64,000 bases of DNA. Source: Branchiostoma floridae. Its lineage: Eukaryota > Chordata > Leptocardii > Amphioxiformes > Branchiostomatidae. Below the pieces are notes generated by a model. The model did not search any database. It saw only the letters and a list, made by a program, of their open reading frames with translations, and had not been told where the DNA came from. Shown here piece after piece: positions 4,389 to 34,144 of the stretch (within the stretch, counting starts at the first letter, position 1; each line of letters opens with the position of its first letter). Location: the NCBI RefSeq assembly GCF_000003815.2, contig NC_049987.1, forward strand, positions 10,298,307 to 10,362,306. The letters are read 5' to 3'. A program made the position numbers and the translations under genes.

Positions 4389-4403
4389 CTTGGATTGTCA
4401 TGT

Positions 4404-5575: not shown

Positions 5576-5576
5576 C

Positions 5577-5594
5577 GCACGTGATCGACCTAGC
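5577..5594 (+). promoter_or_regulatory. E-box/CLEAR-like promoter motif of copy B
   Basis: The word GCACGTGATCGACCTAGC sits about 26-44 nt before the ATG of copy B, with the E-box CACGTG at 5578-5583. It matches the element before copy A exactly, while much of the surrounding 1.2 kb divergent intergenic region is less conserved. Confidence 0.5.
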
Positions 5595-5620
5595 TAGTAG
5601 ACGACAATAGTGTCAGCAAT

Positions 5621-8019: not shown

Positions 8020-8054
<35 letters not shown>

Positions 8055-9638: not shown

Positions 9639-9998
9639 GTGATGACACGGAGAATTAGAATCGTTGATTCCTTGTATTTCAACCTCCTTGCTTGTATACA
9701 ATTGATCTGTGACTACGCTCTAAGCTATGCACATACTAAACAATAACTCTTTTTTAAAGCTTTTGTTCTCGGTTTTCAGCCATGTGTCTTGCCACCGTTG
9801 ACAATTGGTGATCCCTGACACTCCTCCCAACTCTATGAAAAGCGGCCCTGATGGCAATATCGAGTTTAGGTAAAGGCACAAACAAACAATTGAAAATAGA
9901 GTACATGTATTAGATAACTAGTATTTCGGATCAGAGCATCTAATCAATATCTATGATTTTTTTACTTGAAGAAGCAATAACGTGAGGTAGAAATGTGC

Positions 9999-13028: not shown

Positions 13029-14244
13029 AATTTAGGAAATCAGAGTATATATTACATCAGCAAAATACTGTCCTCTAAACGCGATAGTACATACCATGTA
13101 ACGTTGTTATATGAAATGATATTAAAATCCATTTCAGTGTTGTTGATGTTTTTCACTGCGAAAGTTTTTGGTTTTGTAACATTTTAAAGCAATTCAAATT
13201 ACCGCGTTCTCTATTCAGAACATTTTTTTTTGTCTTCAGAGAAACATAAAATTGCCTTTTTATTAAGTAAAAGCGTAAAGATCCTCTGACTGACGGAAGT
13301 TCTGTCCCATCTCTTCGGTCCAACTTTTATATTTCAGATGTCAGACAACAAAACCCGATTTTCTGTAAGACATCCAGGATAACTTGAATAGAAGGCCTCT
13401 TGTGCAGGAAAAGGCTAAGGGGATTCCCATGGTGAGAGGGGGAGGGGGTACTAGTACCTAGGAGGAAGGAGGGGGTGGGGAAGTCGATGGGGTGGAACCA
13501 ACTCCCAGCGCATGCTGACATCTATTATCGAGACCCTACCTATGCAGTAGGAGTATCCTGGCGAATGTGTGTCCAAAGTGACCACCCCTGTGCCATGGTG
13601 CGGAATGGACGTGAGAAAAATAGTTTCTAGCTTGGTGGTATTTCAAGGCACAGTGTGGGACAGGAATTCGGATTCACCATAGTCGTTCTACGGCGGCTGG
13701 TGAATAATCCCTATGATAGTTCTCTTACGTATAAACGGTCCTTTAGGTAGACTAGATAGATAGGTAGCATGCCAGAGGAGTTAGTCAGTATGTTGCATTT
13801 ATAGGCCGGTTAACTTGGCATATTATATATCTATTTGGTCCATTTCTAACGCTTCACGGAGTAGTAGGAGACTAGGTCCATCCTTTATCAACCTCCTTGG
13901 TCCATCCACCGTTACCTGACAGTTTGATAATATTGTTATTTTGAATACCACAACATTGGCAATATCCCAGATTCAACTGCAGTTCGCACACAAACACGAT
14001 GTGTGGTCTAGCATTACCATTATTTTTTTCTGCTCCCTGGTTTCTGCTCTCAACTTGAAGTAGTCTTCTTTTCATGTTATTTTGACAATTCATTCAGAAG
14101 ACCAGACCAGAAAGTACAATAAATCATTTTGATACATCTTTAGGAAGATACTGACTATGCGGTTGCCCTCCATCCACAAAAATACGGAGTCTACATCTAT
14201 AATTCTCAGAATGATTGACATCTCTGATTTATCACATCAAAACT

Positions 14245-14834
14245 AGATATCACACAACTGAGATATACTAACGCCAGAGCGGTAAGCGTGCACACGGGAT
14301 TTGAAAAGTGGGAACCGCAAACTTCACAAGAGCGGGACAATTTTACTTCAGCTGATTATCCGGCACTTGACATTTTATTGTTGCTTTGTTGTGCGCAATA
14401 AAGACCACAATAGCGACAATATCTCGACTTCCTGAGAACTGTTTGTAAACAAACAAGGAGGCCGGCATGACAGGGCCGTGAAAGTGCATCATGTACGTTG
14501 GTAGTTTTGTTGGAGATGATTAAAACACACAGCTGTTAAGATTGGAGGCTACTTGTAACGTCCACAGAAGTGTGGAGACGGGAAAAGCGGCAGGAGAAGT
14601 TGTGGTGTTCCTTTGATTTGTCAGGAGGGTGACAAGTGCGAAGTTTCTCACAGCCGGGTCCGATTCACCGCGGGACCGGCTAATGAGAACGGCCAAGTCC
14701 AGATGACTGGCACTTTGCCGTCAACTAGCCGCGACAAAGTGACAGGATGACAGGGACATGCATGACAAAGGGTCGTACAACCGACAAAGGGACGGTAATG
14801 ACAGGGACCTTAGGATTTAAGGGGCGCCAAAAAA
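14245..14834 (+). promoter_or_regulatory. Brachyury upstream block, + strand copy (probable enhancer)
   Basis: About 590 bp, nearly identical (well over 95% by eye) to the reverse complement of 33558-34144 before the other Brachyury, while sequence on both sides does not align. It includes a palindromic forkhead site TGTTTGTAAACAAACA (near 14442), SOX-type words (AACAAAG, ACAATAG, ACAATAT), a TCF/LEF-type CCTTTGAT (near 14612), several GACAAAG words and CAGCTG E-boxes. It ends about 0.4 kb before the TATA-like box. Conservation is seen directly; enhancer function is inferred. Confidence 0.7.
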
Positions 14835-14989
14835 CAGAAAATTTCATTACATTATTTATAACAGTTACAGCTTCTTTGATGCATATAAATGATGATTATG
14901 TAAAATCGCAACTTTCGTGTCATTTGTTGCTGTGAAATGCAGCGACATATATTTGCATGTACGTTATGAGGGATTACCGTTTTTTTACG

Positions 14990-15064
14990 AGAAAATTGAA
15001 AAGCTCCTTGGTCAGATCAAGGAGCTTTTATCAGGGTCAGATCAAGGAGGTTCAACCTCCTTGT
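14990..15064. repeat. Tandem hairpins AAGCTCCTTG/CAAGGAGCTT and CAAGGAGGTT/AACCTCCTTG
   Basis: Two adjacent inverted repeats lie between the upstream block and the promoter of the + strand Brachyury. They are absent from the other copy, so this is probably a recent small insertion. Confidence 0.7.
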
Positions 15065-15069
15065 GTTCA

Positions 15070-15077
15070 CCAATCAG
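15070..15077 (+). promoter_or_regulatory. CCAAT box of + strand Brachyury
   Basis: CCAATCAG, about 140 nt before the TATA-like element. The same octamer occurs about 130 nt before the TATA of the other copy (33265-33272, minus strand). Confidence 0.5.
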
Positions 15078-15217
15078 TAGTAGCAGAGTTCCGGTAGGGG
15101 GCGCGGTTTGAGTTAGCGGCCACACTGCGGGCATCCCCGCGCATACATTAGCAGCCGGCAGGTCACAAAGGCGAACCTGTGCCTCCCCGTCGTTATCTTC
15201 ATTCATACACACAGTGC

Positions 15218-15226
15218 ATAAATACC
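15218..15226 (+). promoter_or_regulatory. TATA-like element of + strand Brachyury
   Basis: ATAAATACC followed by GC. The other copy has TTTAAATACCGCC at the matching place, and both are preceded by ATCTTCATTCATA. The predicted start of transcription is around 15245-15255, giving a 5' UTR of about 90-100 nt. Confidence 0.6.
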
Positions 15227-15342
15227 GCTGCAGTGCTAATTCTTCCACCCAGTCTCTCCTTCGTGAGAACGTGACAGTTTTCTCGACTCTCCGAAACTTT
15301 TTTTCCGAGAACGTACGCCCGGAGACCAGCGTCAACAACGAG

Positions 15343-17939
15343 ATGAGTTCTGCGGAAACGATGAAGCAGCCTACCGCGGCGTCGCCGGACCAGTTCTCGG
15401 TTAGCCACCTCCTGAGCGCCGTGGAGAGCGAGATCTCGGCGGGGTCGGAGAAGGGAGACCCGACCGAGCGGGACCTGAAGATTACCCTGGAGGAAAAACC
15501 GTTATGGGACAAGTTCAACGCCCTGACTAACGAAATGATCGTCACCAAGAACGGAAGGTACAACATATTGCTTTAATTCCGTCTATCACTTATCAAGTTC
15601 TCGATATCTTGATATTTCCTTGTTGTTCTCTGTGGGGTTTATGGCTCAAGCAGGTCATCGGTGTAAAGTGCGAATCATCATATCTAACACCTGGATGAGA
15701 TTTTCTACCACAAAATACATGTTCACAACAATATGTGATGTAGTCGTGTTATGCCACTGACACATACATTTACGATACAATCATACATGTACAATATGGT
15801 GGGTATATGAAACCCACCAGAAATCTAGCGATATGGAAAATACACTATGCCATAACGGTTGTAATATGTTATTGTTTAATTGTCCCCCCACAGACGCATG
15901 TTCCCCGTGCTGAAGGTGAACGTGTCCGGACTGGACCCTAACGCCATGTACTCCTTCCTGCTGGACTTCACGGCCGCCGACAACCACCGCTGGAAGTACG
16001 TGAACGGCGAGTGGGTTCCCGGCGGCAAGCCCGAGCCGTCCGTGCCGAGCTGCGTCTACATCCACCCCGACTCGCCCAACTTCGGCGCGCACTGGATGAA
16101 ATCACCTGTGTCCTTCAGCAAGGTCAAACTCACCAACAAACTCAACGGTGGAGGACAGGTAAGCCAGGAGAATTCTGTTCTTTTAACCCAACTTTGCCGC
16201 TTCGTAAAATGATAGTATACCCAGTTTGATCTTGGTTTGAAGGCTACCGTCTGTCCTAGCTGTCACGCAACGATTGCAAGGAAAAACGTTATGTCCAGCG
16301 TTGGATTTCGTCACAGAAAAACAACTCTGTACATTACGTTTTTCCTTACGATTGTTGCCCCAGCTACCGTCTAGCCCAAAACTATTTTTAAAAAACTATC
16401 GTACGGTATAGGCCCTAGCCTGGTTTAACACCAAACCCCAGCCCGATCTCAAGTATCTATCGTGAAAGATATTTGATGTTGGGGTATGGTATGGCAATGG
16501 TATCCAGGCTATATAGGCCCAGAAATATCAACCAAAATTATGTTCGACTGGATACAAGTACAAACCCGAACAATGAAACTCCACAATCGTTGCGGACAGG
16601 TAAAGCATTTATAATCCTATCCTTTCAACTGCACTTCCCTTGCCTAGTCTACACGTTGACACAGTATATCCCCTGTTTTAACTGTTTATCCCCGAGTCTA
16701 ACCTAATCATTCGGCCCAACCTCTCACAACGATATTGTGTACCAATTAGTGTGGGATGTTGTTGTGAGTTTTGCGGGACGTGCAGTATTGTGTTCGGCAC
16801 GTGGCGACACGTTTTCTGATGTTATTATCATAATTGTGTTACCTGTCAGAGTCTACCTGTTACCTCGCCTGCCCCATTACACATGATTAAACATGAACAC
16901 TTCATTACACCCATTGTGGACGCATTAAAAGTATGCATGTGTATGTACATTGTTACGGCAGTGTTACCACTACTAATGGGTGTAGGTACGAAATACTAGA
17001 AGCCTGAAAGTAAACGCATTACATTGCCAGTATCAAAAATTCAAAGATAGTGATATGAGAATATGTAAAAAAAAAAATTCCTAGTGGAAGACGAATCTAC
17101 CCACTTTTAAAAGTTTTTCAAAAATTACTTTGATAGTAGAATTCGAATGTTCTCTGTAATGCCCTAATGGTTTGGAAGTACGTTTCTGTAAACAATCGGC
17201 TTCCTTTATTATAGTTAAAGAACAACTTTAGCTAGGGATGAAATGATTCTCGTCTTTTAAAGACCAACGTAACATTTACAAATCATCTTTAACATATGCA
17301 GTTTGATATACTACTACTACTGAGTACTGAGTATCGCCCCTTTTCAATGCATACTACAAAATACTTTGATCTACGTTGCTTGGGTTTGGTTAATTTTCTG
17401 AAAATATCAGTGAATTTTCGATCACGAATCTAGCTCTTAACAGGTACATAACAGGGGTTACAGGTATTGTAACAAAATGAGAATGAAAATGTGATATCAT
17501 CACACGGTTTCTAACCCGTTGCTTGTCTGTGTTTGCCAGCAGATCATGCTGAACAGTCTACACAAGTACGAGCCCAGACTGCACATCATCAAGGTAGGCG
17601 GGCCGGATAACCAGCGCATGGTCAGCACGCACACCTTCCCGGAGACACAGTTCATAGCAGTTACGGCGTACCAGAATGAAGAGGTGAGAACGTCAATATT
17701 TTTTTCTTAATTTACTTTCGGACAGACTTTTTGTTTTCCATGTAGAAATAAATTATATCTATTTGCACGTTGATGCTAACTATTACATGAGAGAATATAA
17801 TTTACTTACTAGGTAAACAATGATTAGAGAAACAGATCTATAACAGCTAAAGCTACGCTTCTCTGAAACAGGTGTATTTGAATTCACGTATTTTTTGTTG
17901 GGTAACGTTGTCTAAGGTTGTAGTAGTATCCATATTGTC

Positions 17940-17977
<38 letters not shown>

Positions 17978-20402
17978 ACTAGATTAGTTCGTCTTTTTCT
18001 TACTGTTTAGATTGTGTACATTCTGCACATCAGAACAGAAGTCTTTTTTTTTAGAATTTATGCTTAAATTGCTTTCTTTGCTTCTTCTCAGATCACAGCT
18101 CTGAAGATCAAGTATAACCCTTTCGCCAAGGCTTTCTTGGACGCAAAAGAAAGGTAAATGTACTGAAACCAATCACATTTGCATCGTTATAATTTAGAAT
18201 GACTCTTTTTATTTTAAGGTAATAATTTGTGTGTATAATAACGGATATGCTCCTTGATATAATACCTACACGTGTGGAGTTATGACAAACATCCCCTTCT
18301 AGATTATTTATCTTTTATGTATGTTGACAGAAGTGATGGGAAGGACGGAATGGAAGATTTGCAAGATCAACCACAATATTCTCAACGTAAGTGTGCTTTA
18401 CTAGTGTCTACCAATAAGTCAGACACGTTTAATTTTTTTGTATATCAAACTGCTGTACCCATCTGACTTTATAGCTTTTTATAAACAAAACAGTAAAGAC
18501 TAGACTCCAACTGGTCTAGTACAATAGGCAGCCAAACACCTCTGGTCTTTTTATGTTCAGTCCACAAAGTAGCGCACTGTTTTAAGAGCACAAGTAAAAC
18601 GTCTCGTTCTATCTCTTCAGTCGGAGGCTGGTTCCTGCCGGGTACAGGCCCCATCTGCCCGCCGCCCAACCCTCACCAGTTCGCCCCGTCCCTCGGCCTG
18701 CCCAGCCACGGCTGTGACAGATACAGCACTCTGAGGAACCACCGCTCGGCGCCCTACCCGCACCCGTACCAGAGAAGCTCTCCTCCAAGTAAGTACATCA
18801 TTTCTCAGAACATGTTGTTGGGTGTTTACTGACCAAGTTTATAATGTTTTGGGGCGCCAGTGCTCGACCAAATGGCATGCTGTCCTGCTTCCTATCGATT
18901 TAGTGCAATGCCGTTCTTGGCTAATGACTGGGAGTTTGTTTTACGAAGTTCTGGCATGTGTTTCAGTCTCACAGTCTCTTTGGCTAGCCTGGTTACCAAA
19001 CCCCAGCCCGATCTCAAGTATCTATCGTGCAGCAACACGAAAGATATATCTTGAGGTTGGGGTATGGAATCCAGGCTATCTCTTTGGCTTGTCATTGGTG
19101 TTATCCAACATTTGATATGGCAAAAATGATGCCCCTCATTTCTATTCGACCCCCTATGCCCCTCATCAAGTTTTATTGAGTAAAAACGATAAACGTTTTG
19201 CAGGACAAGTTAGTGATGAAGAAAGGTCGCTATTTTTATATCATTAAATGTCGAGGTTTATGATTTTTTTTAACTGTTCACTGTAAGTGCCAAAAGCCAG
19301 CTCACATACTATAGCAAAATTGTTTCAACTTTTAACAATTCAAGGTGTCCGGACTCCGGAAAATCATCCATACAACTCTCAGAACCATTGCAAACTTTAG
19401 AGACCTTCCAAAATGATGTGCATTTATTCTTTTGTAATTATCCTGACGAAAGGTGGGTCCACATACTTGGAACCGATAGGAAGTGCCATGATTTAGTACG
19501 AGCGGGCCGACCCACTACTCAAGCACTAAACGTCAGCAGAAAGGGTCCTTTAATAACGGTCATTTGGTCCGATATAGACACAACAAATTACCAGGTACAT
19601 TAAAGGAGGCTGGGCACCATTCAGTCCTGGAGACGTCTGCCCAATTCCCATCATTCCGTCTTTTGTCTTTCCCGACTCGGCCCTTAGCTAACGAGGAAGC
19701 AATGGTGATGGTCCTTATACACGGCGACAGGCCCGGATTGTTTCTGTGATTGACAATTCTGTGGTTTTGGAAATAACTTTGATGATTCGTGGGAAAGGAG
19801 GGACATTCCTTGTTCTGGTGCCTTGGTGGTCTTGTACTATGACGTCATGTATCCGCCCTAAAATTGTCGTCTGATAAAGGTTCGATCTTTATCTGTTAAT
19901 AGATGGTTGCTTATCTATGTTTTAAAACTAATTTTTCGTGTTTTTTTTTTACCTCTTGTTAGCTAACTACGGACACGACACGGCGGCCAGCCTTCCCATG
20001 ATGCCGACGCACGACAACTGGTCGGGCCTGCCGGTCTCCACCCACAACATGCTGTCCATGTCAGCCATGCCTCACACCACCACATCCACGCACGCGCAGT
20101 ACCCCAACCTCTGGTCCGTCTCTAACAACAACCTGACGCCCACCACGCATGCGCAGACGCACATGTCCGGCACCATGGGCACGGGGCTGCCGCACCAGTT
20201 CCTGAGGACCACCGCGCCTGCGCCCTACCATTCCATCCCCACCTGCACGGTACCGACCACGGCGTCCAGCTCTCCGGTGTACCACGACTCGCACGAGGTG
20301 TCTTCCACGGACAGCGGGTACGGGCACTCCACTACCCCACCCGCCCCGCAGACAAGGATAACCTCAAACAACTGGAGCCCTATGACTCCACCATCGCTCT
20401 AA
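15343..20402 (+). CDS. Bra: Brachyury T-box transcription factor (+ strand copy)
   Basis: Seven coding exons: 15343-15557, 15894-16158, 17543-17683, 18092-18153, 18331-18386, 18621-18788, 19963-20402; all GT-AG and in phase, 448 residues. The T-box runs from about residue 47 (KPLWDKF) to about 228 ([10 protein letters not shown]), with [62 protein letters not shown] and [13 protein letters not shown]. The C-terminal third is Pro/Ser/Thr/His-rich, as in Brachyury transactivation regions, and holds the NWSG and SGYG patches. In chordates this nuclear factor drives mesoderm and notochord genes by binding TCACACCT-type sites. The ATG at 15343 (MSSAET, then MKQ) is preferred over an in-frame upstream ATG at 15214 because that one overlaps the TATA-like box. 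Convergent with the minus copy. Confidence 0.95.
16416..16511. mobile_element. MITE in Brachyury intron 2 with 9-bp target duplication
   Basis: TAGCCTGG...CCAGGCTA ends with an ACCCCAGCCCGATCTC interior, flanked on both sides by TATAGGCCC (16407-16415 and 16512-16520). The 9-bp duplication and terminal repeats suggest a Mutator-like non-autonomous element. A second copy is at 18985-19078. Confidence 0.8.
17940..17977. repeat. (TA)n microsatellite in Brachyury intron 3
   Basis: An uninterrupted TA run of about 36 bases. Confidence 0.95.
18985..19078. mobile_element. MITE in Brachyury intron 6 with 10-bp target duplication
   Basis: Same TAGCCTGG/CCAGGCTA ends and interior as 16416-16511, flanked by TCTCTTTGGC on both sides (18975-18984 and 19079-19088). 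Confidence 0.8.
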
Positions 20403-21203
20403 ATATAATATCCTACCAACAAAAGTGGAAAAAACATTGTACAAATTCAAAATAAGCTTTATTTTAGTTGTATAGAATGCGTGCTCTCTTGCTTTATCTT
20501 GCCAAAGATACCAAAGAACCGAAAGTTTGAGCATAACCTTTGTATATTTAAGACCCTGAGCAATGTCTTTCCTCAGGTAGCTTGTGGTAAAAATGCTAAC
20601 AGACAGATTGTATTACGTGTATATACTTATACCAAAGCTGTGGTCTGAAATTATATACTAGCTTTTGTTGCATACCGTAGATTTTATCAGAGATACGTAT
20701 TTTTGCAAGAGACATTTGTATTTAAAGAAAGCCCAAGAGCATTACTTATTTATTGATATTTTTTATCCTCGCTTCTTACATTATCTGTATATAGTTGTAC
20801 AGTTTGGGTGACATTTTGCACTACCTTATTATCGGAAGTAGTAAATTACCGCTGCTCGCCTGACCAACTCGTCAACCTGTTACTTACCTGGATTACCCTT
20901 AATTGTGCAGACAAACAGATAGCAAGCCAGCACTTAAGGCACGTGTTAAATCACCTGCCGGCTATTTGAACTTTTAAGCCACTCCATAAGAGGTGATTCA
21001 CACCAATACGCGAGACACCTCCGATAAAAGGTGCCACAACCTGCTTTTACACCCTGCACCAAGAGAAAAACTTCCGACACTTTTGTATTTCTGTATCAGC
21101 TTGGCGACAAGAACTTGCAAGAATTGCGGTGGGACAATCAGTGATTGTGTTGTACCTTTTGTAAACGTAGCTTTTCTACCTGTTGTCAGTAAAAAGGAGG
21201 GTT

Positions 21204-21209
21204 AATAAA
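21204..21209 (+). terminator. Candidate polyadenylation signal of + strand Brachyury
   Basis: AATAAA about 800 nt after the stop codon; it would give a long, AT-rich 3' UTR. Confidence 0.4.
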
Positions 21210-21770
21210 GACGTATGTTGTGCGTTTGTTTGGGACAGAAAGAAGTGCCATAGTTTTGCCATGTTTGTGTAGTTTCTGCGGGCGGCGGTGTTTGCGATCT
21301 CTCGGCCCCCTCGCAGGTGCAGTGCTCACCCGACCCCTACTTCATATTTACACTTCGCGATAGGGTACAAAATACTGGCTTTGTTTGCCGATACTTCAAT
21401 TCAAAGTAATTGGACTTTCAAGAATGAAGCGGGTCAAGTAGACATATCGGCACTGCTTCTAAACAAGGGGCACGAATTCGGGGGACATTTCTGAAGTAAC
21501 TTGCGTTATTCCGTTGGCACGAAGTTTGAAGAGCGGGCTCAGCGACCAACCGTTCCCCCGGGGAATTTGAGCAATGCCCACAGGGGATTTTGTTGACAGC
21601 GACATACAATTGTATCGCACATACAAGAGATTAAGAGATAATCTGGTTGACACTAACCCTTGTTCGTTTAGGAATTGATAAAGTTTATTGCTCACACCTG
21701 GATGGTAAGGTGCGTGGGCCACTTGTGCAATACCAGATGTGGGCAAAAATACCTGCCCAAACCCCGGGAG

Positions 21771-21945
21771 GTACTCAAGCAGAGGTTAGGTTCCAGCTGG
21801 ATATTGACTTTTTAAAACTAATTTTTTTTTTTATAATCGGGCTATCTAATTTCGGATGAGAGAAAACCTATAGATAGGAAGGTTAAACCAAAAACGTCAA
21901 AAACCAGACGGGGCTTAACCTATGCTTGGGAATACTAGGGATGTG
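21771..21945. mobile_element. MITE, CTCCAAGCAGAGGTT family (diverged)
   Basis: The left end ACTCAAGCAGAGGTTAGGTTCC is mirrored by GGGGCTTAACCTATGCTTGGGAAT about 150 bp later. The inside is AT-rich and non-coding. Confidence 0.6.
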
Positions 21946-22719
21946 CTCAAGTTTTCTGTAAACCTGATGCGGACATCTTAAAATTCTTTCCAGTCTTCAG
22001 AAGAAAAGGACACAAGTCTTGGGGGAATGGTAGCAGATGAGTGGCAAATTAGTTCTTGTATCGTAGTAACACATGAAAGATTTTTTTTATGAAATCTGGA
22101 AGCAGAACTGAACGACGACTACTAGTAATATGGTGTTGAAATGTCACTCCTATAAAGGAGGTTCTCTCCAATAAAGGAACTCCTTGTTTCTCCAGTACTA
22201 GTATTGCTCACTAAACGTTAGATTAAACTTGAACGAAATTCACTTCAACCAATCTTCGAGGAAACGTTACAAACGTCAAACTGTAGTCTGTTTTAGGGAC
22301 AAAGGAATTCATCACGATTTCGATTCCCCAACTTTCCTACATTGACGGATGAACAGGAAAAAAAATCATAGAAGTTAGAACCCACAAATCATAAAGAAAG
22401 TGGGGGCCTTTTATCTCCATCTGATTAGAAAAATAAGCCAAACCCAACAGTTGAACTTGTCTAGATATACTAGTACGTGTAGCCAACACTAAAGTAATAG
22501 AAATGTTCTCTGTGCTTCTACCATATGTGATAATGAATAAATGATATCCAGGAAATATGGTTTAATTTCTACGTCCATGTACTTGCAATCAAAGTTCAGA
22601 CACAACCTTGTAGATATTATTTAGATGGATTGCGTACTCCCCAAGACATTTGCACGATAGATGCATTCATTCATAGAAGCACAGAATGAATACGTGACCG
22701 AAGGATCTTCAATGTTTGT

Positions 22720-23020
22720 ATTAAATGTCACTACGTGTATTGCATGTAGGGTCATAAGTTCACGGACATGTCCTCTCCATGTCCGCTCGCGGCGGTCCTT
22801 CCTCACACAGTCGTGCAAATGTCGTGACAAACTCGTCCCTTTGATATTCCCCGAACCAGCACGCAGTACGACATATGTCGGCACGACTTCACAAGTCCAT
22901 GTGGAGCGTGGTTCACAATGGGCCGGACTTGTTCATGCATTATTACAAGGTGCGAGGCGGCTCATCCCTTTGTTCTATCATGTCCCTGCCTTCTCTCCAT
23001 TGTTCTACCATTCGTGTCAT
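22720..23020. repeat. Spacer direct repeat, copy 1 (copy 2 at 28220-28560)
   Basis: Shared order of words: AAGTTCACGG, GTCGGCACGACTTCACAAGTCC vs GCCGGCACAACTTCACAAGTCC, GGAGCGTG, ACAAGGTGCGA, then TTGTTC and GTGTC motifs. No coding potential was found. Confidence 0.55.
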
Positions 23021-23430
23021 TCGCACAAGTCTTTGCTATGCATAGGTGTAGATGTCCTCTCTAGAGACGTCAGACTTGATATTGACATCTCTGGTCGGTT
23101 TCCCAGGGGAGCATCTTTCTACACGGTTGATGTTCTAATCAATTAGCAGTGTCTAATTAAGTCCCCCGCTGCCTTCCGTGTACCCAGCTTCCTCGCTAAT
23201 CGACTGTATATAAAAGAAGTTGTTTTTCACGATGATTCCCTGGGATAACCTTACAGACTCTAACGACGTACGGAGTTCGGGGGCCTTGATGACGTTTGCA
23301 CACTGCTTTGTGTATGATTGACGTTTGTTTGACCTCGTTCGCACCTCCCGAGCGGGTCCGGGGTGGTGACAAACAAGCGTGGTCTCTGCAAGGTTTACCA
23401 ACAACAGATGGGGAGTAGCGTACGTGGATA

Positions 23431-23586
23431 GTCTCCAAGCAGATCATAAGGTGGCATAAGATAGTATCAAAAGCTGGCAAAGGAGTGTAGCCAGCCTAGG
23501 AGTGTTCATTGCCCACTGAACACTCCTAGGCCGACTATATACTCCTTTATCATCTTTTTCCACTATAGGATCTGCTTGGAGATTAT
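23431..23586. mobile_element. MITE, CTCCAAGCAGATC subfamily, with direct flanking repeats
   Basis: CTCCAAGCAGATC at the left and GATCTGCTTGGAG at the right, flanked by TACGTGGATA on both sides (23421-23430 and 23587-23596). The inside carries a palindrome, CCTAGGAGTGTTCA...TGAACACTCCTAGG. Confidence 0.75.
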
Positions 23587-25094
23587 TACGTGGATAGTCA
23601 TTGATATTTTTCGTGTACAAAATGGACAACGACACCTTATCTTTGTACAATATCTTTGGACTCTGTAACAACGAAAATAGACAACTTGAGGACACAAGCG
23701 ACTATGGTTTTTCTTAATAAAGAAAAGAACTTTACCTTTGTCGTCTTTCTTAGAACATTAAGGGTGGCACATCCTAACATTATGATCTAATAGTAGCTTT
23801 CATTCTGAGCAAAGTATGAAATTGAGTAGAAACGTGATATTTACGAGTTTAACTTTCACCCAAATTTAAACTTCTTAATCACCAAATTAAGTTCAGTGGC
23901 TATAGTTTCACATGCTGGAGAAATGATTTATTATCGAAAATTTCAATCCACACATGAATTGTTTCTTCCTTATATCTGTTCTTATATATTTTTTTTAAAA
24001 GAAAGTAGCTCTCAAAGCCTCTCTCAAAATTTGCGTAAAAATATCAGTATCTTAGTACAGCCAGTCTTGAGAAAAGTTCTATGGTTATCTTATAATTATG
24101 GAGCTCAAACTTAAGTACTGTTTACGTATTGTGATCTACGTTCAAGTGGAGGGCGGTTGGTTTTAACAGTTTGATCATCACAAACTTTCACGGCCAAACT
24201 TCACCTCACTGAAACGCCCATTAGAAACGGTCGCACCTCACAGTTAAAATACTAAATACCGATCTACCAGAAACATGCCAAAACTTCCCGCTTTCTTCAC
24301 AAGAGCATGTCGAACGTTACACCTTACCATGTATGGACTGTTAAAGAGTTCACGGCATATTCGTAAAATATCAAGAACGAATAGGAAACTATAGGGTCAC
24401 ATTTACATGTCTCAAACTCCTCGCATGCTCCAAGTTCAAGCTAGTGTAGGTGTATGAAAGATATACGGCATATGCAAGGGTCGCTTGCGCAAAGTTTTGA
24501 TTTATCATCAGTACAAAAACACCATATTGTCGGAGATTATGTAGAAGACATTCTGAAACAAGTACATGGTTGTGCCCACCAACGCTCGGGCTTAGTCTCA
24601 GTGGATAAATAGCCACTGGCAAAAGTAGCGAGCTCAATTAACAGTGTCAATATTAACACAGGTGCGGACTGGTGGGAAGAAGGAGTAACACATGTTCATT
24701 CCCTTACATTGCAACGGTTTTCTCTTTTCAGCGCTGTGCTAGCACGCTATCAACCTCATGGAAAGATTGTTACCTTTTTTTCAAGTGCTTGAATGCGTCC
24801 AATGGCCTTTGCAGTGGAAACGTTTGTGTTGAAACTTAGGCGGATGATATAAAGCACAAAAATGAAAAGTTTAGTTCCACTCAAAATTGCACAAATATTT
24901 TGGATTCTGAGAATGTTGATGAAAATAGGCTAGGGCACTATAAATTGGACCAAATTACAACCATAGTATGGAATGATATATAAGGAAGCGTTATTTTCTT
25001 TACCGTTGCCCCCCCCCCCCCCTCACCCTTGCTGTAGTCTCAGATAAATAAAACGCAGCTGATAAATGCGATTCTCATCAATAGATAAACATCA

Positions 25095-25100
25095 TTTATT
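25095..25100 (-). terminator. Polyadenylation signal after the orphan exon
   Basis: AATAAA on the minus strand, about 70 nt beyond the stop codon at 25170. Confidence 0.5.
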
Positions 25101-25169
25101 TTACAACCTTTCCTTCATACATTTTGACACATCTTGATGTATAACTCTTTAAGGAAGCTCGGTGTTTTC

Positions 25170-25315
25170 TTAGCGAATCCCGGGGACGAACTGGGTCAGG
25201 ACTTCCGCCAGTACCAGGTAACCGGAAGGGTCCTTAATATGTAGGTCTCTCACCTGGAGTGGCCCGAGCTCCGCAGGTGTTGGTATGACGTCATCAGGAG
25301 TCACATACTTGTAAA
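25170..25315 (-). CDS. Orphan 3'-terminal coding exon, unidentified gene
   Basis: A 146-nt open stretch on the minus strand preceded by a consensus-like acceptor (AATAG) and ending in TAA, with an AATAAA about 70 nt further on. It encodes about 47 residues including VTPDDVIPTPAELGP and VRDLHIKDPSGYLVLAEVL. The DPSGYL...AE pattern is reminiscent of the last strand of glyoxalase/VOC-fold proteins, but this is only a weak resemblance. No other exon of the gene was recognised in the 25.3-29.2 kb stretch upstream. It could be a fragment left by duplication or the end of a gene with diverged upstream exons. Confidence 0.45.
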
Positions 25316-25485
25316 CTATTAGTTAAGAGGTGAAAATGTGCGATATATTAGAAGCTAATGCCCCTTCCAATGCATATTACTCCTGTTGTTATTGTTGCAC
25401 ATATAACGTACGTACGGACTATCAAAACGCAGATTAACACATTGGGTTGTGCCTCCACTTTTACCATATATATAAACACGCAGCA

Positions 25486-25813
25486 AAATCTTTTCAACTT
25501 TGAAAAATGTATTCATGAATCCTTTTCGTCAAGTGAGATGCGTGTGGTGTGACGTTTGCAATACATGTATTACTAGGAAAATGTATTTGAAATTGTCCAT
25601 CTGTTTTAGCTTATCTAAACTTGACCGTGGTTCCACCACTCAGAGAAATGAAATCTTTTCAACTTTTGAAAAATGTATCTATGAATCCCTTTCGCCATGT
25701 ATGATGCGTGTCATATGACGTTTGCAATACATGTATCATGAAAATGCTTTTGAAATTGTCCATCTGTTTTGGCTTATCTAAACTTGACCATGGTTCCACC
25801 TACTCAGAGAAAA
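25486..25813. repeat. Two-copy tandem duplication, unit 165 bp
   Basis: AAATCTTTTCAACTTT starts each unit (25486 and 25651). Each also carries GACGTTTGCAATACATGTAT, GAAATTGTCCATCTGTTTT and CACTCAGAGAAA-type ends. Confidence 0.85.
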
Positions 25814-27869
25814 GCGTTTCTGTTTTCTGCATCACGAGTTGTTGACGACTCCAGACCAACAAGGCAGAAAAGGCACGTTCACGAGGAGGACGCAAACTTT
25901 TAACACGGAGCTGTTACCGCGCTGGTCAATATTGTATCTTCACAGATTCCTCAGATGAGTCAACTCCGTTTTCTCTCCGGGCAAACACAGAAGAAGCCAC
26001 TCGTTCTAGTAAAACTCCTTACGTGGCCATCTTATGACTCATCCTGTCTTTCTTATAGACAGCTGTCTTACACAGATGCTTCAAATGTGTCTTTGATAAA
26101 GCTATTCTATCTCTCATACGGAACAGAAGACTCAACAACAGATATGTGATATTTAAAGTAGGTTGTATCTCCAACACCTTGGCGGGCTGAACATTTCTCG
26201 AGTCGTGGCGAATAAGACGGGAAAACGTCGCACGTCATCACCAATGGTTTCCTGACAAGTTCTCACCAACTTACGGCTAACTTGGCGGAGGGACGATAGC
26301 GTGTCGGGCACAAGCCTGCGACATGGGTTTCAAAATAGCAGCGACATTTCAATATTTCTGAGGAATGGGATTTCTTCAAATGAAATGATATGATTGTTTG
26401 ATATTATGGTGTCTTGCTTCCTTGTGTATATTCGTCTTAGCAGATATACGACTAGTTAAAAAGTTAACATTAAGTTTATATGTTTAAAAATTTCAGCTTT
26501 ACTCAATTGCATTGTTGTAGACATGTCATACATGATAGCACTATTGTATATTTAGAGGCATTCTAGATTTAAACTCTAAATCTATACATTACAAAGTTGT
26601 ATGCTGGACGTAATTTTGATCTTTGAATTACTAATACTTTCTTCTTCAAAAGAGAATGCTATGCATATTCTTATTCAGTTATTTCTAGAGTTTCTGACTA
26701 GTTTCATGTATACCCAATACGTGAGGCGTGATATGTGCAATGGTTGTGAGTCAGATAAAGTCCATATTACTCCTCTGCAAAACAAGGTGTAGCAATGTAG
26801 GGAGACAAGTCTGAGCAGGTCTCGTGAAGGGAGTACCAGGGAAGAGGAGGGGCCGAGTGGGTGCGAGGAAACCCGACCCGAATGCCGATCTGAAAACGTG
26901 TTGTGTCTTTGGCACGGCGAGGTTGACTTTTCCTCGCTCACGCCACATCAACCTAATTAACGACTGTTTGAAGATAGTTGGAGATTTTGGGGTGCCATCC
27001 CACTGAGAACCTTGGGCAAACGTTGACTCAGTAGAGCTTCGCCTTTCTACGGTAAATACAGCCATTTATCTTGTCAAGTCTCATGGCCAGGACGCGTCAA
27101 AAACAAGTCGCCAGAAAACAACCCAAAGTAAGGAAAACAATAAAAGAGTTTGGGTTTCTGATTCTGTTCTTAAATCTCTAGTGAGAACTACGATTCGACA
27201 ATTTGCACTTTTGTTGAGAATGTATGAAATCAATAATAGCATTCAGTGATTTTAAAATAAAAGTCTTTTCAGGAGCCAAAAACAAAAGCAAATCGCTACG
27301 CTTCAAGAATATGAGTCTGAATCTGAATACATAATTTTTTTGGTCGTTTACCATAGACTTCTTATTTCGTTTTGCACTCAGCTGTTTAAAACAATCTTGT
27401 TTCCTGTTCTCGTGGTGTTTCTAAATTACAAACAGCCGAAGTACGATCTCATGGCCGTGTCAGTTTGTCTGCTAATTGTTCACGACAGCCTGAGATGTTC
27501 TTGCCTTTGTCTCAAGTGTAGCGTCGAGACGACAATGTCACTAGACAAAAGGGGAAAGACAAAGCAGTTCAACTGAGGCACGCGACACAGATTTTTTTTT
27601 TTCGTACTGTAATTCCTGATTTTTTTTCAATGTACTGTTATGTTCACGGCTTTCACGGTGACGACAGTAACGTTTTACACGGACATTTCTTACAAAGTTG
27701 ACATTCTGTCAGATTCTAAGCGCAAGCATCGCAGTATTCACTATTCACAGTTGTTAGTTTTAGAGTCAGGCAAAATGCACACACTGTCTAGGTTTTCATA
27801 TGAGCAATATATAGACTAGTTGAAGTACTGTGTTGTTGTCGGTTGTTATGATAAAAAATTACATATATA

Positions 27870-27902
27870 GTGAGTGAGTGAGCGAGTGAGTGAGTGAGTA
27901 AG
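27870..27902. repeat. (GAGT)n microsatellite
   Basis: About eight GAGT units with one GAGC variant. Confidence 0.95.
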
Positions 27903-28219
27903 AATAAGTGAATGAAGACCAAGCACACAGGCATGTTAAAAGTTGGCTAGCATACAACTTATACCAGCTAACATTAAATAATCAATTCAACTTCCCACTT
28001 TTTAGATACGTTAGAATTTGAATCACAGAATCTTTTCAATTGAAGTTTTGTCGAATTTTTGTCGAGTTTCATTAGGAATATGAATTTTCCACAGTACTTT
28101 AACGAAATGCACTTGATCATGACTCACTTTATCCTTATATTCTACAAGATATTATCATAAAATTCAAGCTGTATACAATGCAGGAACCTTTACAAAAATT
28201 ATCTGGTACCGAGAGGTTG

Positions 28220-28560
28220 TTGAACATATGTCCAGAATATGTCCGCAACACTGTAAGACCTCCCGGAGCCGAAAAGCCAGTCCTGTCCCCGGTCAAAAGT
28301 TCACGGTTGAACCCTGACATCTGTTCGGGCTCGCATTTGGCCCTTCACGTTGCAAATTTTCCCTTTGAAGGGCGCCGAAAATCGTTGAATTTGACATGTG
28401 CCGGCACAACTTCACAAGTCCTCGCGGAGCGTGCCTAACAAAGGACCCATGTACTCTTTACCCTGTGAAAGGGTCGCTACAAGGTGCGAATGAGGCTGTC
28501 CTATTGTTCAGTCGTGTCCCCGTGTCTGTGTTATTGTTCTACCTATTCTGCCCCGAGCTT
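28220..28560. repeat. Spacer direct repeat, copy 2
   Basis: Counterpart of 22720-23020 in the same orientation, 5.5 kb away in the same Brachyury spacer. Confidence 0.55.
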
Positions 28561-29200
28561 GTAGTTTGTGACCCCACGGGGATACGCACAGGGTCTCTTA
28601 AAATAACAAAGAAAGGGGACTGCAATATACTGAAATAAAAGCTAATTGAGAACTAGATGTGCATTTAGTTTATTAAAAAAATCGTAGATGTTTACAGAGT
28701 TACTGTGTGTATCATTCAGTGGGGAGGGGGGCTGCAGTTGACTACTTTTCGTTGTCTAGAAGTCAATTACAATAACTTGAATAAGACCAGAATGTTACTT
28801 TCCAATTCACCCTACTAGTTACATTTTTTTTATATATGACAAGGAGCGGTCAAATAAATCTTTTTGTTACACTTGAGGTCTTAAGTAAGATAACTGCAAT
28901 TACTCCAGCAACTGGATATGGTTTTGGAAACTGCCAAATAATTGCTATCTTACCACCTGGATGCTTTAAAGATGTTTTTTTTTGTTTCGTTCTAAATGCT
29001 CACTTTATTGTAGAATATTAAGAATGATTGATTCATCTATTTGGATCATAGATTATCATCAAATCGCATTTAGTAAGTGCTTCTGCTAAATCAGTCAGCT
29101 AAGTGGTGTCCTTGATTCATTCTTTGTCTAGTTAGCTCTAAATTACTTCATAAAAAGCAGAAAAGGAAACAAATACCATGTATTCTTGCAAACAACTTCT

Positions 29201-29206
29201 TTTATT
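29201..29206 (-). terminator. Candidate polyadenylation signal of - strand Brachyury
   Basis: AATAAA on the minus strand about 360 nt after the stop codon. Confidence 0.4.
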
Positions 29207-29563
29207 TACATCAACTACGATTCTACCACACAAAAATAAACGTTTATCTATATAAATATCAACACATATGTCTGAGTCTTTTCCTTGAACTTTACATTAT
29301 GTACAATGGACGAACTTTTCCTTCGTTGAAGTGACATGATTTCATCGGAATGACGCTTGGTAAAAGTGACAATTAATTCAATGATTAGGAAACGTTATTA
29401 CGAGTGTATGGCGCTTTAACTTAGAACTGAATGTACAATAAATATAAAATCCTTTGGTACGTTCTAGTTTGGCAAGTTTAACGGCATGGTTTCGGGTACA
29501 TTTTAGTACATCTGGAGTCTTTCTTTGGTCACCGATTGTCCTTACATTACAATGAGAAATGTT

Positions 29564-32500
29564 TTACATGGACGGCATGGTCATGGGGCTCCAGTTGTTT
29601 GAGGTTATCCTTGTCTGCGGGGCGGGTGGGGTAGTGGAGTGCCCGTACCCGCTGTCCGTGGAAGACACCTCGTGCGAGTCGTGGTACACCGGAGAGCTGG
29701 ACGCCGTGGTCGGTACCGTGCAGGTGGGGATGGAATGGTAGGGCGCAGGCGCGGTGGTCCTCAGGAACTGGTGCGGCAGCCCCGTGCCCATGGTGCCGGA
29801 CATGTGCGTCTGCGCATGCGTGGTGGGCGTCAGGTTGTTGTTAGAGACGGACCAGAGGTTGGGGTACTGCGCGTGCGTGGATGTGGTGGTGTGAGGCATG
29901 GCTGACATGGACAGCATGTTGTGGGTGGAGACCGGCAGGCCCGACCAGTTATCGTGCGTCGGCATCATGGGAAGGCTGGCCGCCGTGTCGTGTCCGTAGT
30001 TAGCTGAAGGGGAAAACAACAAGAAAAATCTCGGTTACAATCTTTCATCTTTGAAATACAACATATCATATAAACAAGTAGAAAAAAGGTTTGGAAGTCC
30101 TGTAGCGCAAATTGGGTATACATTTCTCAATACTCGAGCGTTCCATTCAAACACAAAACAGAACACCTATTTACAAGATAAGCTAGCTGCATCCAACAAA
30201 GAACGACTACAGTGTCCAATTTGCAAAGAAGTGGATTACACTAACAAAGCTACAGCTTAACAATAGCCACCATATGCGTAATGTGCACGTGTGGACCTTG
30301 TAGAGATGAATTCTAACAGAATCTGAGAAAGCAAAATGGCAATCTACTTACTTGGAGGTGAGCTTCTCTGGTACGGGTGCGGGTAGGGCGCCGAGCGGTG
30401 GTTCCTCAGAGTGCTGTATCTGTCACAGCCGTGGCTGGGCAGGCCGAGGGACGGGGCGAACTGGTGAGGGTTGGGCGGCGGGCAGATGGGGCCTGTACCG
30501 GGCAGGAACCAGCCTCCGACTGTGGGTACAAGGAGATCTTACGTTAGAACAACCCAACAAAAGTAAAAAAAAAACATATATCAAAACTTTTTTTCTTGTC
30601 ACCTGGCACCATTTTAACACAGGCGCCGCGTAGCGTCGGTAGTAATTTTTATTGAAATCATTTTCACAGCTTGGCTGTGATTGAACAATGCCATGTTTGA
30701 CATCGATACGTTTTCAGGTTTTCCTCAGAAGTCAACCGACAACGATTCAAATTCATGACCGACCAAACGCGTTTAGCTGTGATTCAAAAAGCCTGGACCA
30801 GAGGTGTGAAAACTGCGATTTGTTTTTGAGCGAAGATTGTCAGAAACGTGTGTCGGTTACTCCTTTATCGGATGCCGCGTCTTTGAACTTTCAAGTTCTG
30901 TTTGCCTTGGCATTGTTTGTGAGATAATTACATAGGAGAGCAAAAAATGCTAAAATGTACCAAATGTAAAAGGTGTAGACCGATCAAAACTATGTACACC
31001 AGAACAATTTGAATAGAAACTCACGTTGTGAAAACTGAGGCTGCTGGTCAGTCAAGTCGTCATGTCCACTCTTGGTGTCATTTCTGTGTTGGGAAAACAA
31101 CATAAAGAAAACTTTGAGTCACAAATAATACATAGACAAACAAGTCAACTCTTTCCCACGCCATGTTTATGGCCACAGACACCGAGGTGTCAAACACCAG
31201 GCAAAAGAGCGCGAATTGACCGGCTAATAATGAAAACAAGACGGAGACAAAGCGTCGTCCACTCGGCTTTATGCTTCACACCTATCTCCTAAGTCGTCCT
31301 TACAAAAGTATTTACTAGATGGTGCGAAGATGAGGATCAGATGTAAACCATACGTACCGTTCTTTAGCGTCAAGGAAGGCTTTGGCGAACGGGTTGTGCT
31401 TGATCTTCAAAGCTGTCAGCTGTTGAGACAAAAAAGAAATAACAGGTAAATATTTGTGACCGAGGAAAGAAAGAATTGTACCAACCAAACGGCTCTGAAT
31501 AAAATAAAAAAAATGCATTCTCAGTTACAGCAAATTTCTACAGTCAAACTGAAACTATAAAGAAAAGCACCAAATCTGTTGCAATTCATACTGTAGTTAA
31601 AGTTCATACCTCTTCGTTCTGGTAGGCAGTGACAGCGATGAACTGTGTCTCGGCGAATGTGTGGGTACTGAGGGTTCTCTGGTTGTCAGGTCCCCCCACC
31701 TTCACGATGTGGATGCGCGGTTCGTACTTGTGCAGGCTGTTCAGCATTATCTGCTATAGATGGAACAAACATGGCAACATATTACTTATTAGATTCCTGA
31801 CTGAAACAGCAGAAGTTGGTCTATTTCTAGGGAAATGGTAGACGTGATTTTAATTACGTTTAATGGATGTGTTAACGAAACCCAACCCCAAGAAGGCGAA
31901 CACAGAAAATTAACACAATTACACAGAGTAGACACCGAAAACCGAGAGCGCTAACTTGTGCCACGCGAGAGGCGTTGAAGAAATGTCATAACAAAAACTG
32001 ACGCTGATTAGGATACAATAGCTTTGTAGGATTCTGATAGGATTTTGAGTTCTAATCGAGTTGGGTTTCGAGTGATTTTTAGGCTAGACACAGTCTCTAA
32101 AAAAAAAATTAGCGACGGAGCTTTCATCAGATAAAGGCCCCACAATTTAACTAATTACGAAGCGACAAAGTTGGGGTGGAATAAAAAAATCTTAGTGGCT
32201 TACCTGTCCACCACCGTTGAGTTTGTTGGTGAGTTTGACCTTGCTGAAGGACACAGGTGATTTCATCCAGTGCGCGCCGAAGTTGGGCGAGTCGGGGTGG
32301 ATGTAGACGCAGCTCGGCACGGACGGCTCGGGCTTGCCGCCGGGAACCCACTCGCCGTTCACGTACTTCCAGCGGTGGTTGTCGGCGGCCGTGAAGTCCA
32401 GCAGGAAGGAGTACATGGCGTTAGGGTCCAGTCCGGACACGTTCACCTTCAGCACGGGGAACATGCGTCTGTGTGGGATAGATACAAGACATTTCGTTAG

Positions 32501-33045
32501 ATTCCGTCGGTTCGCTAGTTACCGCATGTACGGTAGTCGATCGCAACGATAAACTTGTTGTTACCACGGATATTTATTTGCTATTCAGAGAATCAAGTCA
32601 ATCCATGCATGTAGATCTCATGGCATGAGATAAACGCAAACATACTAGTGATTTAGTTCCTGTACTTCTTGCCGGAAAATCTCAGCAGAAATTTCAACAG
32701 GACATAAAATAAAATGACTCGTTTACTTCCGGCTCGCTACACAGAAATAGGACAGACAGGAGGAAAGCAAGTTACTTTACTCGTTGAAATATGACGGTAG
32801 AAAGAAGAAGCTTGTACTAACCTTCCACTCTTGGTGACGATCATCTCGTTGGTGAGAGACTTGAACTTCTCCCACAGCGGCTTCTCGCCCAGGGTAACCT
32901 TCAGGTCCCGCTCGGTCGGGTCTCCCTTCTCCGACCCCGCCGAGATCTCGCTCTCCACGGCGCTCAGGAGGTGGCTAACCGAGAACTGGTCCGGTGTCTG
33001 CTTCATGGTGCACGGTACGGCTGAAGTATCCACGGGAATGGTCAC
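29564..33045 (-). CDS. Bra: Brachyury T-box transcription factor (- strand copy)
   Basis: Seven coding exons: 33045-32822, 32468-32204, 31750-31610, 31419-31358, 31083-31025, 30519-30352, 30003-29564; all GT-AG, 452 residues. Exons 2, 3, 4, 6 and 7 have the same lengths as the + strand copy; exon 5 is one codon longer and exon 1 differs at the N terminus. The start is MTIPVD at 33045; an internal Met (MKQT, 33006) matches the second Met of the other copy. The T-box is complete, but exon 3 has [13 protein letters not shown] where the other copy has [13 protein letters not shown], and exon 4 has KIKHNPF for KIKYNPF. The C-terminal region is almost identical to the other copy except for the last residues (MTMPSM). 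Introns are shorter. A likely recent inverted duplicate with patchy homogenisation. Confidence 0.95.
30802..30810 (+). promoter_or_regulatory. T-box half-site in intron 5 of - strand Brachyury
   Basis: AGGTGTGAA, a perfect Brachyury half-site. The reverse complement TTCACACCT occurs 473 bp away at 31275-31283 in intron 4 of the same gene. Possible autoregulation; binding is inferred. Confidence 0.35.
31275..31283 (-). promoter_or_regulatory. T-box half-site in intron 4 of - strand Brachyury
   Basis: TTCACACCT on the + strand, i.e. AGGTGTGAA on the minus strand. It pairs with the site at 30802-30810. Confidence 0.35.
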
Positions 33046-33133
33046 GAGAAAATGAAAAGTCGTCTGACGATCGTTCGAAGTGCTGCACAGAGGAAGTCGT
33101 GAGCTAGACTGAGGAACACTGTGACCACGGCGG

Positions 33134-33141
33134 TATTTAAA
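33134..33141 (-). promoter_or_regulatory. TATA-like element of - strand Brachyury
   Basis: TTTAAATA followed by CCGCC on the minus strand, matching the ATAAATACCGC of the other copy. About 90 nt before the first ATG. Confidence 0.6.
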
Positions 33142-33264
33142 CGCTGGTGTCTATGAATGAAGATGAGGCTTTGTTACTGTACTTGGTGGGGAGCTGATTT
33201 ATGCGTGGGAGTCCCGGAGAGTGACATGGACCTGAAGCCACGCCCCTTGTCAGAAATCCTCGCC

Positions 33265-33272
33265 TCTGATTG
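33265..33272 (-). promoter_or_regulatory. CCAAT box of - strand Brachyury
   Basis: CCAATCAG on the minus strand, about 125 nt before the TATA-like box. A second CCAATCA lies about 45 bp further upstream (near 33312-33318). Confidence 0.5.
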
Positions 33273-33557
33273 GTGGTACCACGGCGAGAGACGTGATGAT
33301 TAGCGTGTCTTGATTGGCAGCTATGGTTGTCGCCGATTATTCCGACTGGCTTCGTATGTAACTTTTCTTTACAATTTCAACGAAAAGTAGCTAATACTAT
33401 AATAGTGATAAAACTTGCCGCTAAAACAATAAAGGCACAAAATCAAGAAAATCAATGTGTAAATAAAATGTAACAGCTTCTATTAAACTTTCATACATGA
33501 GTTAAGTTATCTATTTTTTATCAATTTGAATGTCTGAGGATCGCTGAATAATTTTAA

Positions 33558-34144
33558 TTTTTGGCGCCCTTTCCCTCTAGGTCCCTGTCATCACCGTCCC
33601 TTTGTCGGTTGTACGACCCTTTGTCATGCATGTCCCTGTCATCCTGTCACTTTGTCGCGGCTAGTTGACGGCAAAGTGCCAGTCATCTGGACTTGGCCGT
33701 TCTCATTAGCCGGTCCCGCGGTGAATCGGACCCGGCTGTGAGAAACTTCGCACTTGTCACCCTCCTGACAAATCAAAGGGACACCACAACTTCTCCTGCC
33801 GCTTTTCCCGTCTCCACACTTCTGCTGACGTTACAAGTAGCCTCCAATCTTAACAGCTGTGTGTTTTAATCATCTCCAACAAAACTACCAACGTACATGA
33901 TGCTCTCTCACGGTCCTGTCATGCCGGCCTCCTTGTTTGTTTACAAACAGTTCTCAGGAAGTCGAGATATTGTCGCTATTGTGGTCTTTATTGCGCACAA
34001 CAAAGCAACAATAAAATGTCAAGTGCCGGATAATCAGCTGAAGTAAAATTGTCCCGCTCTTGTGAAGTTTGCGGTTCCCACTTTTCAAATCCCGTCCGCA
34101 CGCTTACCGCTCTGGCGTTAGTATATCTCAGTTGTGTGATATCT
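33558..34144 (-). promoter_or_regulatory. Brachyury upstream block, - strand copy (probable enhancer)
   Basis: Reverse-complement twin of 14245-14834, differing at only scattered positions. It carries the same forkhead word (TTTGTTTACAAACA), SOX words, CTTTGAT and GACAAAG words in the same order and spacing. It lies 0.4-1.0 kb before the TATA-like element, as in the other copy. Confidence 0.7.

Follow-up and report, generated by a model that had tools for sequence, protein, structure and literature searches.

Ectopic gene conversion as the probable cause of a mosaic of near-identical and diverged segments in an inverted Brachyury gene pair of amphioxus

The stretch of Branchiostoma floridae DNA analyzed here (the window: 64,000 nucleotides, C9:10298307-10362306, in an assembly of 513 Mb and 431 contigs) carries two Brachyury genes in inverted orientation and raises one question. 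How can two neighboring genes be nearly identical in some exons and at or near saturation of silent changes in others? An earlier, sequence-only reading had described the pair as a mosaic of near-identical and diverged segments, and our recount confirmed it. We put at about 80% the probability that the mosaic was caused by ectopic, DNA-templated gene conversion between the inverted copies, limited to islands of surviving homology.

Both genes are intact and have seven exons. Copy A lies on the + strand (15343-20402) and copy B on the - strand (33006-29564); the facing 3' ends are about 9 kb apart, and the pair is therefore tail to tail. The gene models were derived from sequence and protein similarity. 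They predict proteins of 448 (copy A) and 439 residues (copy B) with a single terminal stop each, and all 12 introns of the two copies are GT-AG, with lengths of 336, 1381, 408, 177, 234, and 1174 bp in copy A and 353, 450, 190, 274, 505, and 348 bp in copy B. The Pfam T-box profile scores 247 and 245 bits, and the top PDB matches of both copies are Brachyury/T chains (6F58: 373 and 361 bits), far above the TBX5, TBX21, TBX3, and TBX1 chains, which reach at most 209 bits. By these scores both copies are T-box proteins nearest to vertebrate T. By database lengths, copy A would presumably be the gene named Bra1 and copy B Bra2. The literature is cited here by PMC number. Bra1 and Bra2 of B. floridae were placed on chromosome 9 and their orientation was given as head-to-head (PMC8321703), whereas the window shows them tail to tail; a NOTUM-like gene was described as adjoining them (PMC5363035), matching the arrangement in the window.

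The mosaic becomes apparent when the exons are compared in order (copy A coordinates, on the + strand, precede those of copy B, on the - strand). Exon 1 (15343-15557; 32822-33006) is divided: the copies differ at 1 of 106 bases over 15385-15490, and then at 15 of 67 over 15491-15557, where the sequence-only reading had the 15 differences right but gave the length as 64. Exon 2 (15894-16158; 32204-32468), a part of the T-box, is homogenized, with 1 of 265 bases differing. Three diverged exons follow, with 32 of 141 bases differing in exon 3 (17543-17683; 31610-31750), 12 of 62 in exon 4 (18092-18153; 31358-31419), and so little left in common in exon 5 (18331-18386, 56 bp; 31025-31083, 59 bp and thus 3 bp longer) that the longest exact match is 5 bases, in keeping with the strong divergence noted earlier. 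Identity then returns in exon 6 (18621-18788; 30352-30519), where 2 of 168 bases differ, and in exon 7 (19963-20402; 29564-30003), which includes the stop codon. There we counted 1 difference in the first 418 bases and 9 in the last 22, so that the near-identity reported before those last 22 bases stands, and the earlier counts for exons 2, 3, 4, and 6 and the first half of exon 1 were reproduced exactly. Over the homogenized coding blocks (the first half of exon 1, exons 2 and 6, and exon 7 minus its last 22 bases) 5 of 957 bases differ. Exons 6 and 7 lie outside the T-box match and within a 200-residue stretch that is identical between the copies (residues 245-444 of 448 in copy A), whereas exons 3-5, which belong to the T-box, differ. 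The length of 141 bp for exon 3, also given earlier, assumes splicing to the second acceptor of a tandem AG site, a choice that the match to vertebrate T proteins favors and that makes intron 2 of each copy three bases longer than the length given above. This tandem acceptor (AG-CAG; 17540-17545 and 31753-31748) is kept in both copies despite the divergence of the exon, and could yield isoforms with one or two glutamines.

Silent sites follow the same blocks. Plotting synonymous divergence (dS) exon by exon had been proposed as a check, and by the Nei-Gojobori method with Jukes-Cantor correction dS ranged from 0.017 to 0.060 in the conserved exons and from 1.28 to infinite in the diverged ones. 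The individual values were 0.037, 0.017, 0.049, and 0.060 for the first half of exon 1 (exon 1a) and exons 2, 6, and 7, the figure for exon 7 taking in its diverged end, versus 2.09, infinite, 1.28, and infinite for the end of exon 1 (exon 1b) and exons 3, 4, and 5, with one extra invariant codon included in exon 3. The end of exon 1 and exons 3, 4, and 5 are thus at or near silent-site saturation. At fourfold degenerate sites, counted without the last seven codons of exon 7, 3 of 180 differ in the homogenized parts versus 19 of 29 in the diverged parts (Fisher P 6e-17). Protein constraint alone was rejected, as the sequence-only reading had argued, because the silent sites share the block pattern; they pass from near identity to saturation within one gene.

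This block pattern of high beside low identity exceeds chance. The longest identical coding run is 365 bases, whereas 20,000 shuffles of the differences gave runs of at most 179. Penalized segmentation divided the coding sequence into six segments, whose edges lie at coding positions 139, 211, 474, 739, and 1329. For three of these five edges an exon junction is no more than 7 bases away (chance of about 0.003 if edges are placed at random), and the introns that adjoin them score at, or close to, the level of shuffles. The mosaic, the silent-site contrast, and the edges are all read directly from the alignments, as is the upstream block described below.

As a local control, we used a Notum-like gene pair about 5 kb away. 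It is also inverted (43-4422 on the - strand and 5576-9653 on the + strand), with the two genes divergent and their 5' ends facing, and Pfam PAE was found in the two exons scanned. Its seven blocks are 83-89% identical, and the four coding ones have a dS of 0.15-0.33. This pair lacks the Brachyury type of contrast, yet it is not completely even, with identities of 0.73-1.00 in 60-bp windows and one identical run of 80 bp. Among T-box controls, the genes at 2.12 and 2.18 Mb of C11 share two pieces at 71-74%, and for the genes at 19.53 and 19.56 Mb of C11 no paralog-level DNA match was listed.

The sequence-only reading held that, apart from the switches inside exon 1 and at the end of exon 7, identity stops at exon borders. 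A 600-bp upstream non-coding block had been missed. It occupies 14234-14833 (+) in copy A and 33558-34155 (-) in copy B, is 96.8% identical between the two strands over 600 columns, and lies 510-1109 bp before the start codon of copy A and 552-1149 bp before that of copy B. In its core (14250-14810) 9 of 561 bases differ (1.6%), close to the 1.7% of fourfold sites, and its 100-bp flanks align at shuffle level (33 and 96 of 200 shuffles score as well). Since this block is homogenized, the feature extends from 14234 to 34155 and the identity is not confined to exons. Between the block and exon 1, BLAST matches only a TATA-like stretch (about 86% over 35 bp). The TATA-like boxes, read from the sequence at 15216-15224 (+) in copy A, where the box is not homogenized, and at 33134-33140 (-) in copy B, would mark the core promoters; the block sits about 380-420 bp upstream of them and probably lies outside the transcripts. 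No further match to it was found in the rest of the window, nor in 16 of 18 other loci compared, the remaining two being copies of window sequence. Three of eight motifs counted in the block exceed mononucleotide shuffles, a comparison that makes them suggestive only: TGACAG with 4 copies (0 of 300 shuffles), a Fox-like motif with 3 (8 of 300), and the palindrome CAGCTG, whose count of 4 over both strands means 2 sites (1 of 300). The other five are not clearly above shuffles. Its richness in these motifs suggests that the block may be an enhancer. No Rfam match at gathering score was found in the window.

The introns had been called unalignable except for about 50 bp after exon 2, and this largely held. 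Intron 2 aligns better than 500 of 500 shuffles because of its first 50 bp (16159-16208, + strand), a residual homology that scores above all 200 and all 500 shuffles. The exception was drawn too narrowly, since the 100 bp preceding exon 7, with a T-rich tract, also align better than 200 shuffles. Introns 1 and 3 are weakly better than chance (19 and 12 of 500 shuffles score as well). Introns 4, 5, and 6 align no better than shuffles (403, 235, and 316 of 500 score as well). A recent duplication of the whole gene was therefore rejected: most intron sequence cannot be aligned, and the silent sites of exons 3-5 are saturated or nearly so.

How old, then, is the pair? Within exon 2 all 88 residues are the same in the two copies, and each copy shares 84 of 88 with the human protein. 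In the T-box part of exons 3-5, compared over 66 residues after leaving out columns with gaps, they share 58 with each other. Copy A shares 59 and copy B 56 with the human protein, and the counts against the 1XBR T protein of the frog are 57 and 58. Set against vertebrates, the pattern is thus the reverse of what protein constraint would lead one to expect. In these exons the paralogs are as distant from each other as from the human or the 1XBR protein. These distances, the silent-site switch, and the three edges near junctions together support the earlier suggestion that the block edges are conversion-tract edges. For the unconverted exons we counted site patterns instead of building a tree, because only 66 aligned residues could be set against two vertebrates. 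Three sites, plus one insertion, group A and B against both vertebrates, and two group A and human against B and 1XBR; three changes are unique to B and two to A. The duplication looks old from such comparisons, because of the vertebrate-like distances in exons 3-5, the near-saturated silent sites, and the presence of two linked copies in both B. floridae and B. belcheri (PMC5363035). The three shared substitutions and the shared two-residue insertion still favor a cephalochordate origin of the duplication.

The homogenized parts give a very different time scale. At 5.89e-9 mutations per base per generation (PMC12862219), 3 differences at 180 fourfold sites put the last homogenization about 1.4 million generations ago, with an upper bound of about 4.2 million. 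The fourfold divergence of the converted exons is 1.7% (interval 0.3-4.8%). Since this point estimate is below the synonymous diversity of 3.97% reported in the same paper and the interval overlaps it, the homogenized parts of the paralogs resemble each other about as closely as two alleles do, if not more closely. A divergence at or below allelic diversity therefore points to exchange that was recent or recurrent.

We infer that exchange was the cause of the mosaic, and what follows on its direction, number, timing, and repair pathway is meant conditionally. An old tail-to-tail duplication would have left two functional Brachyury genes with their 3' ends about 9 kb apart. Introns, untranslated regions, and proximal promoters would have lost homology, and exons and the upstream control region would have been kept alignable by selection. 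A germ-line break in one copy could then be repaired from the inverted neighbor, on the same or the sister chromatid, with repair tracts that begin and finish within the islands of homology because heterologous introns halt them. Islands long enough to pair (the upstream block, exons 7, 2, and 6, and half of exon 1) would be rewritten often and stay near-identical; shorter ones (exons 3, 4, and 5) would have dropped below the homology required and then diverged. The lengths of the islands fit this order: about 600, 440, 265, about 175 (exon 1, partly converted), and 168 bp for the converted ones, and 141, 62, and 56 bp for the unconverted ones, a separation with a chance of 1 in 56 (hand calculation). 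The closeness of 1.6% in the upstream core to 1.7% at fourfold sites would be explained if one process had reset both.

Base composition was also considered. Raised GC at third codon positions has been used as a mark of conversion, and was significant in two of three mammalian pairs (PMC2720389). In B. floridae, non-crossover tracts were mostly shorter than 200 bp, and GC bias was seen in all tract classes but the maternal tracts with multiple single-nucleotide polymorphisms, which had AT bias (PMC12500494). Third-position GC in the Brachyury pair is 279/322 (0.87) in homogenized codons versus 70/110 (0.64) and 78/110 (0.71) in diverged codons (P 5e-7 and 4e-4), and in the Notum-like pair it is 0.57-0.67.

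Several points weigh against gene conversion as outlined. The length rule covers 8 islands, was noticed post hoc, and needs the half-converted exon 1 to be counted as converted, so we offer it only as a hypothesis. In exon 1 the converted part amounts to a short piece of about 106 bp that ends in mid-exon with no heterology to halt it, and the 50 bp of intermediate similarity kept in intron 2 are left without explanation. The GC content of the upstream block is ordinary (0.45), which speaks against a simple GC-bias account of that block; the GC signal is therefore exon-only and could reflect codon bias. The 1.7% fourfold figure is based on 3 differences. Finally, the comparison is of one assembly from one species, in which constraint and local assembly smoothing keep the small share of probability that we give them below.

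One alternative would add to gene conversion as we propose it. Exchange could be real, with exon 1b and exons 3-5 excluded from it by selection for divergence of the DNA-binding domain and not by short homology. The differences between the copies include P/A in FPETQF, I/L, and M/T at sites that are alike in human and the 1XBR T protein, exon 5 has a nonsynonymous divergence (dN) of 0.35 and exon 1b one of 0.11, and the expression of Bra1 and Bra2 differs (PMC8321703). However, dN is just 0.08 in exons 3 and 4, and silent sites at or near saturation in exons 1b and 3-5 are expected from a mere lack of exchange. We think such selection unlikely.

Purifying selection at the level of single bases, an option for exons also raised by the sequence-only reading, acting through exonic enhancers, RNA signals, or an ultraconserved upstream enhancer, could in principle keep the blocks near-invariant with no exchange at all. 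The upstream block does appear regulatory by its motif counts, and silent-site identity by itself cannot separate constraint from exchange. Yet 180 fourfold sites and 561 non-coding bases would need to be almost completely constrained. Such selection would have to hold nearly every base of three exons and half of another, end a few bases from the junctions, and spare neighboring exons of the same DNA-binding domain, whose silent sites are at or near saturation. It also offers no special reason for the match between 1.6% in the core and 1.7% at fourfold sites. We consider this explanation improbable.

An assembly artefact, with reads or consensus from one copy placed in both, seems to us more doubtful again. 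The animal is very heterozygous (PMC12862219), the near-identical blocks of 168-440 bp are places where short reads could be misplaced, and the same assembly has another T-box stretch on two contigs (see below). On the other hand, there is no N run between 8155 and 47333, and filling of an assembly gap was rejected on this ground. Misplacement may polish differences of a few percent, but it is unlikely to make saturated silent sites 99% identical inside copy-specific introns. In addition, in situ probes could not separate Bra1 from Bra2 owing to their high sequence similarity (PMC8321703).

The possibility raised by the sequence-only reading that reverse-transcribed Brachyury messenger RNA, as complementary DNA (cDNA), overwrote the exons of one copy is the least credible: most of the identity is exonic and exons 6 and 7, neighbors in the messenger, are both homogenized (as separate islands, with no junction crossing required), but the 600-bp block upstream of the inferred promoter, whose untranscribed status is deduced from the TATA-like box, is homogenized to a similar degree and so disfavors such a template, the five state changes in messenger order need at least three separate tracts, no intronless copy is present among the 34 T-box matches listed for the 431-contig assembly, none of which spans more than 122 of 182 positions (a limited point, as a cDNA template need not leave one), and conversion from genomic DNA, given heterologous introns, already accounts for tracts confined to exons.

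If most of the coding sequence was recently exchanged by gene conversion, whole-gene trees would draw the copies together and the duplication could look young or species-specific; only exons 1b and 3-5 would record its age. This matters because Bra1 and Bra2 have been used in arguing the time of the Brachyury duplication and the origin of notochord expression (PMC5363035). In practice, any RNA-seq read, in situ probe, or CRISPR guide that falls in exon 2, 6, or 7 hits both copies. The locus also provides a natural test of the length of homology that conversion requires, in a chordate whose mutation and recombination rates have been measured. More tentatively, conversion could act as a lasting partition device that keeps three parts shared over the long term, namely the upstream control block, the equivalent of one exon of the DNA-binding domain, and almost all of the C-terminal region, with the remainder of that domain, like the proximal promoters, drifting apart unshared; we consider this possible, with the odds clearly against it. 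Were it true, two notochord regulators would be evolving as chimeras, identical in part and for the rest as different as amphioxus and human.

Other features of the window and of the assembly were recorded. A 221-bp element at 12216-12436 and 37607-37387 is 95% identical and inverted, lies outside both Brachyury copies, and has weaker matches at 5433 and 10564; it may be a dispersed repeat, or else what is left of a larger inverted duplication. Beyond the Brachyury pair, on its downstream side, are an uninterrupted 422-residue open reading frame of the IspD family (47990-49255, +) and a LanC-like exon (50910-51311, -). Further along, retrotransposon RNase H and reverse-transcriptase open reading frames occur at 58028-62909 (-), in a region with tandem arrays of 78-bp and 75-bp units (59242-59874 and 61183-61583) that are similar to each other in inverted orientation. 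Elsewhere in the assembly, the T-box-matching stretch found on both C2:4186001-4196000 and C4:32972001-32982000 consists of three pieces at 99.4-100% identity, about 4.6 kb in all, with N gaps in one; it could be either a recent duplication or a misplaced haplotype.

As far as can be told, the locus is the one already described for amphioxus as linked, "highly similar" Bra1 and Bra2 with a NOTUM-like neighbor (PMC5363035, PMC8321703), and conversion or a mosaic is not mentioned for them in the excerpts of these two papers. We found no open-access report of gene conversion or concerted evolution for amphioxus Brachyury, most of the subscription literature lying outside the search. The closest likeness is with Dlx a/b of Capitella teleta (PMC3199776), also a linked, inverted, tail-to-tail pair of developmental transcription factors with a mosaic that includes silent sites and was ascribed to conversion in part of the gene, the remainder having diverged. 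The main tract there covers about 150 bp, intron included, at one end of the homeobox, whereas in the amphioxus pair about 957 coding bases in four exons and a 600-bp upstream block are homogenized, and the introns hardly at all. Conversion between linked duplicates is also known from Drosophila Hsp70, Hsp82, alpha-amylase, and trypsin, cited as inverted, and from hexapod engrailed/invected (PMC3199776), to which the likeness is by description only. The mammalian pairs BMP8A/B, DDX19A/B, and TUBG1/2 similarly have some exons in concert and others divergent, with third-position GC significantly raised in two of the three, but they were chosen for exon-intron-exon identity and two of the three are direct repeats (PMC2720389); the amphioxus tracts stop at exon borders because the introns are unalignable. 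Conversion in inverted pairs of developmental genes is thus already known, and what distinguishes the Brachyury pair is the upstream non-coding block, the exon-limited tracts, and the effect on dating the duplication.

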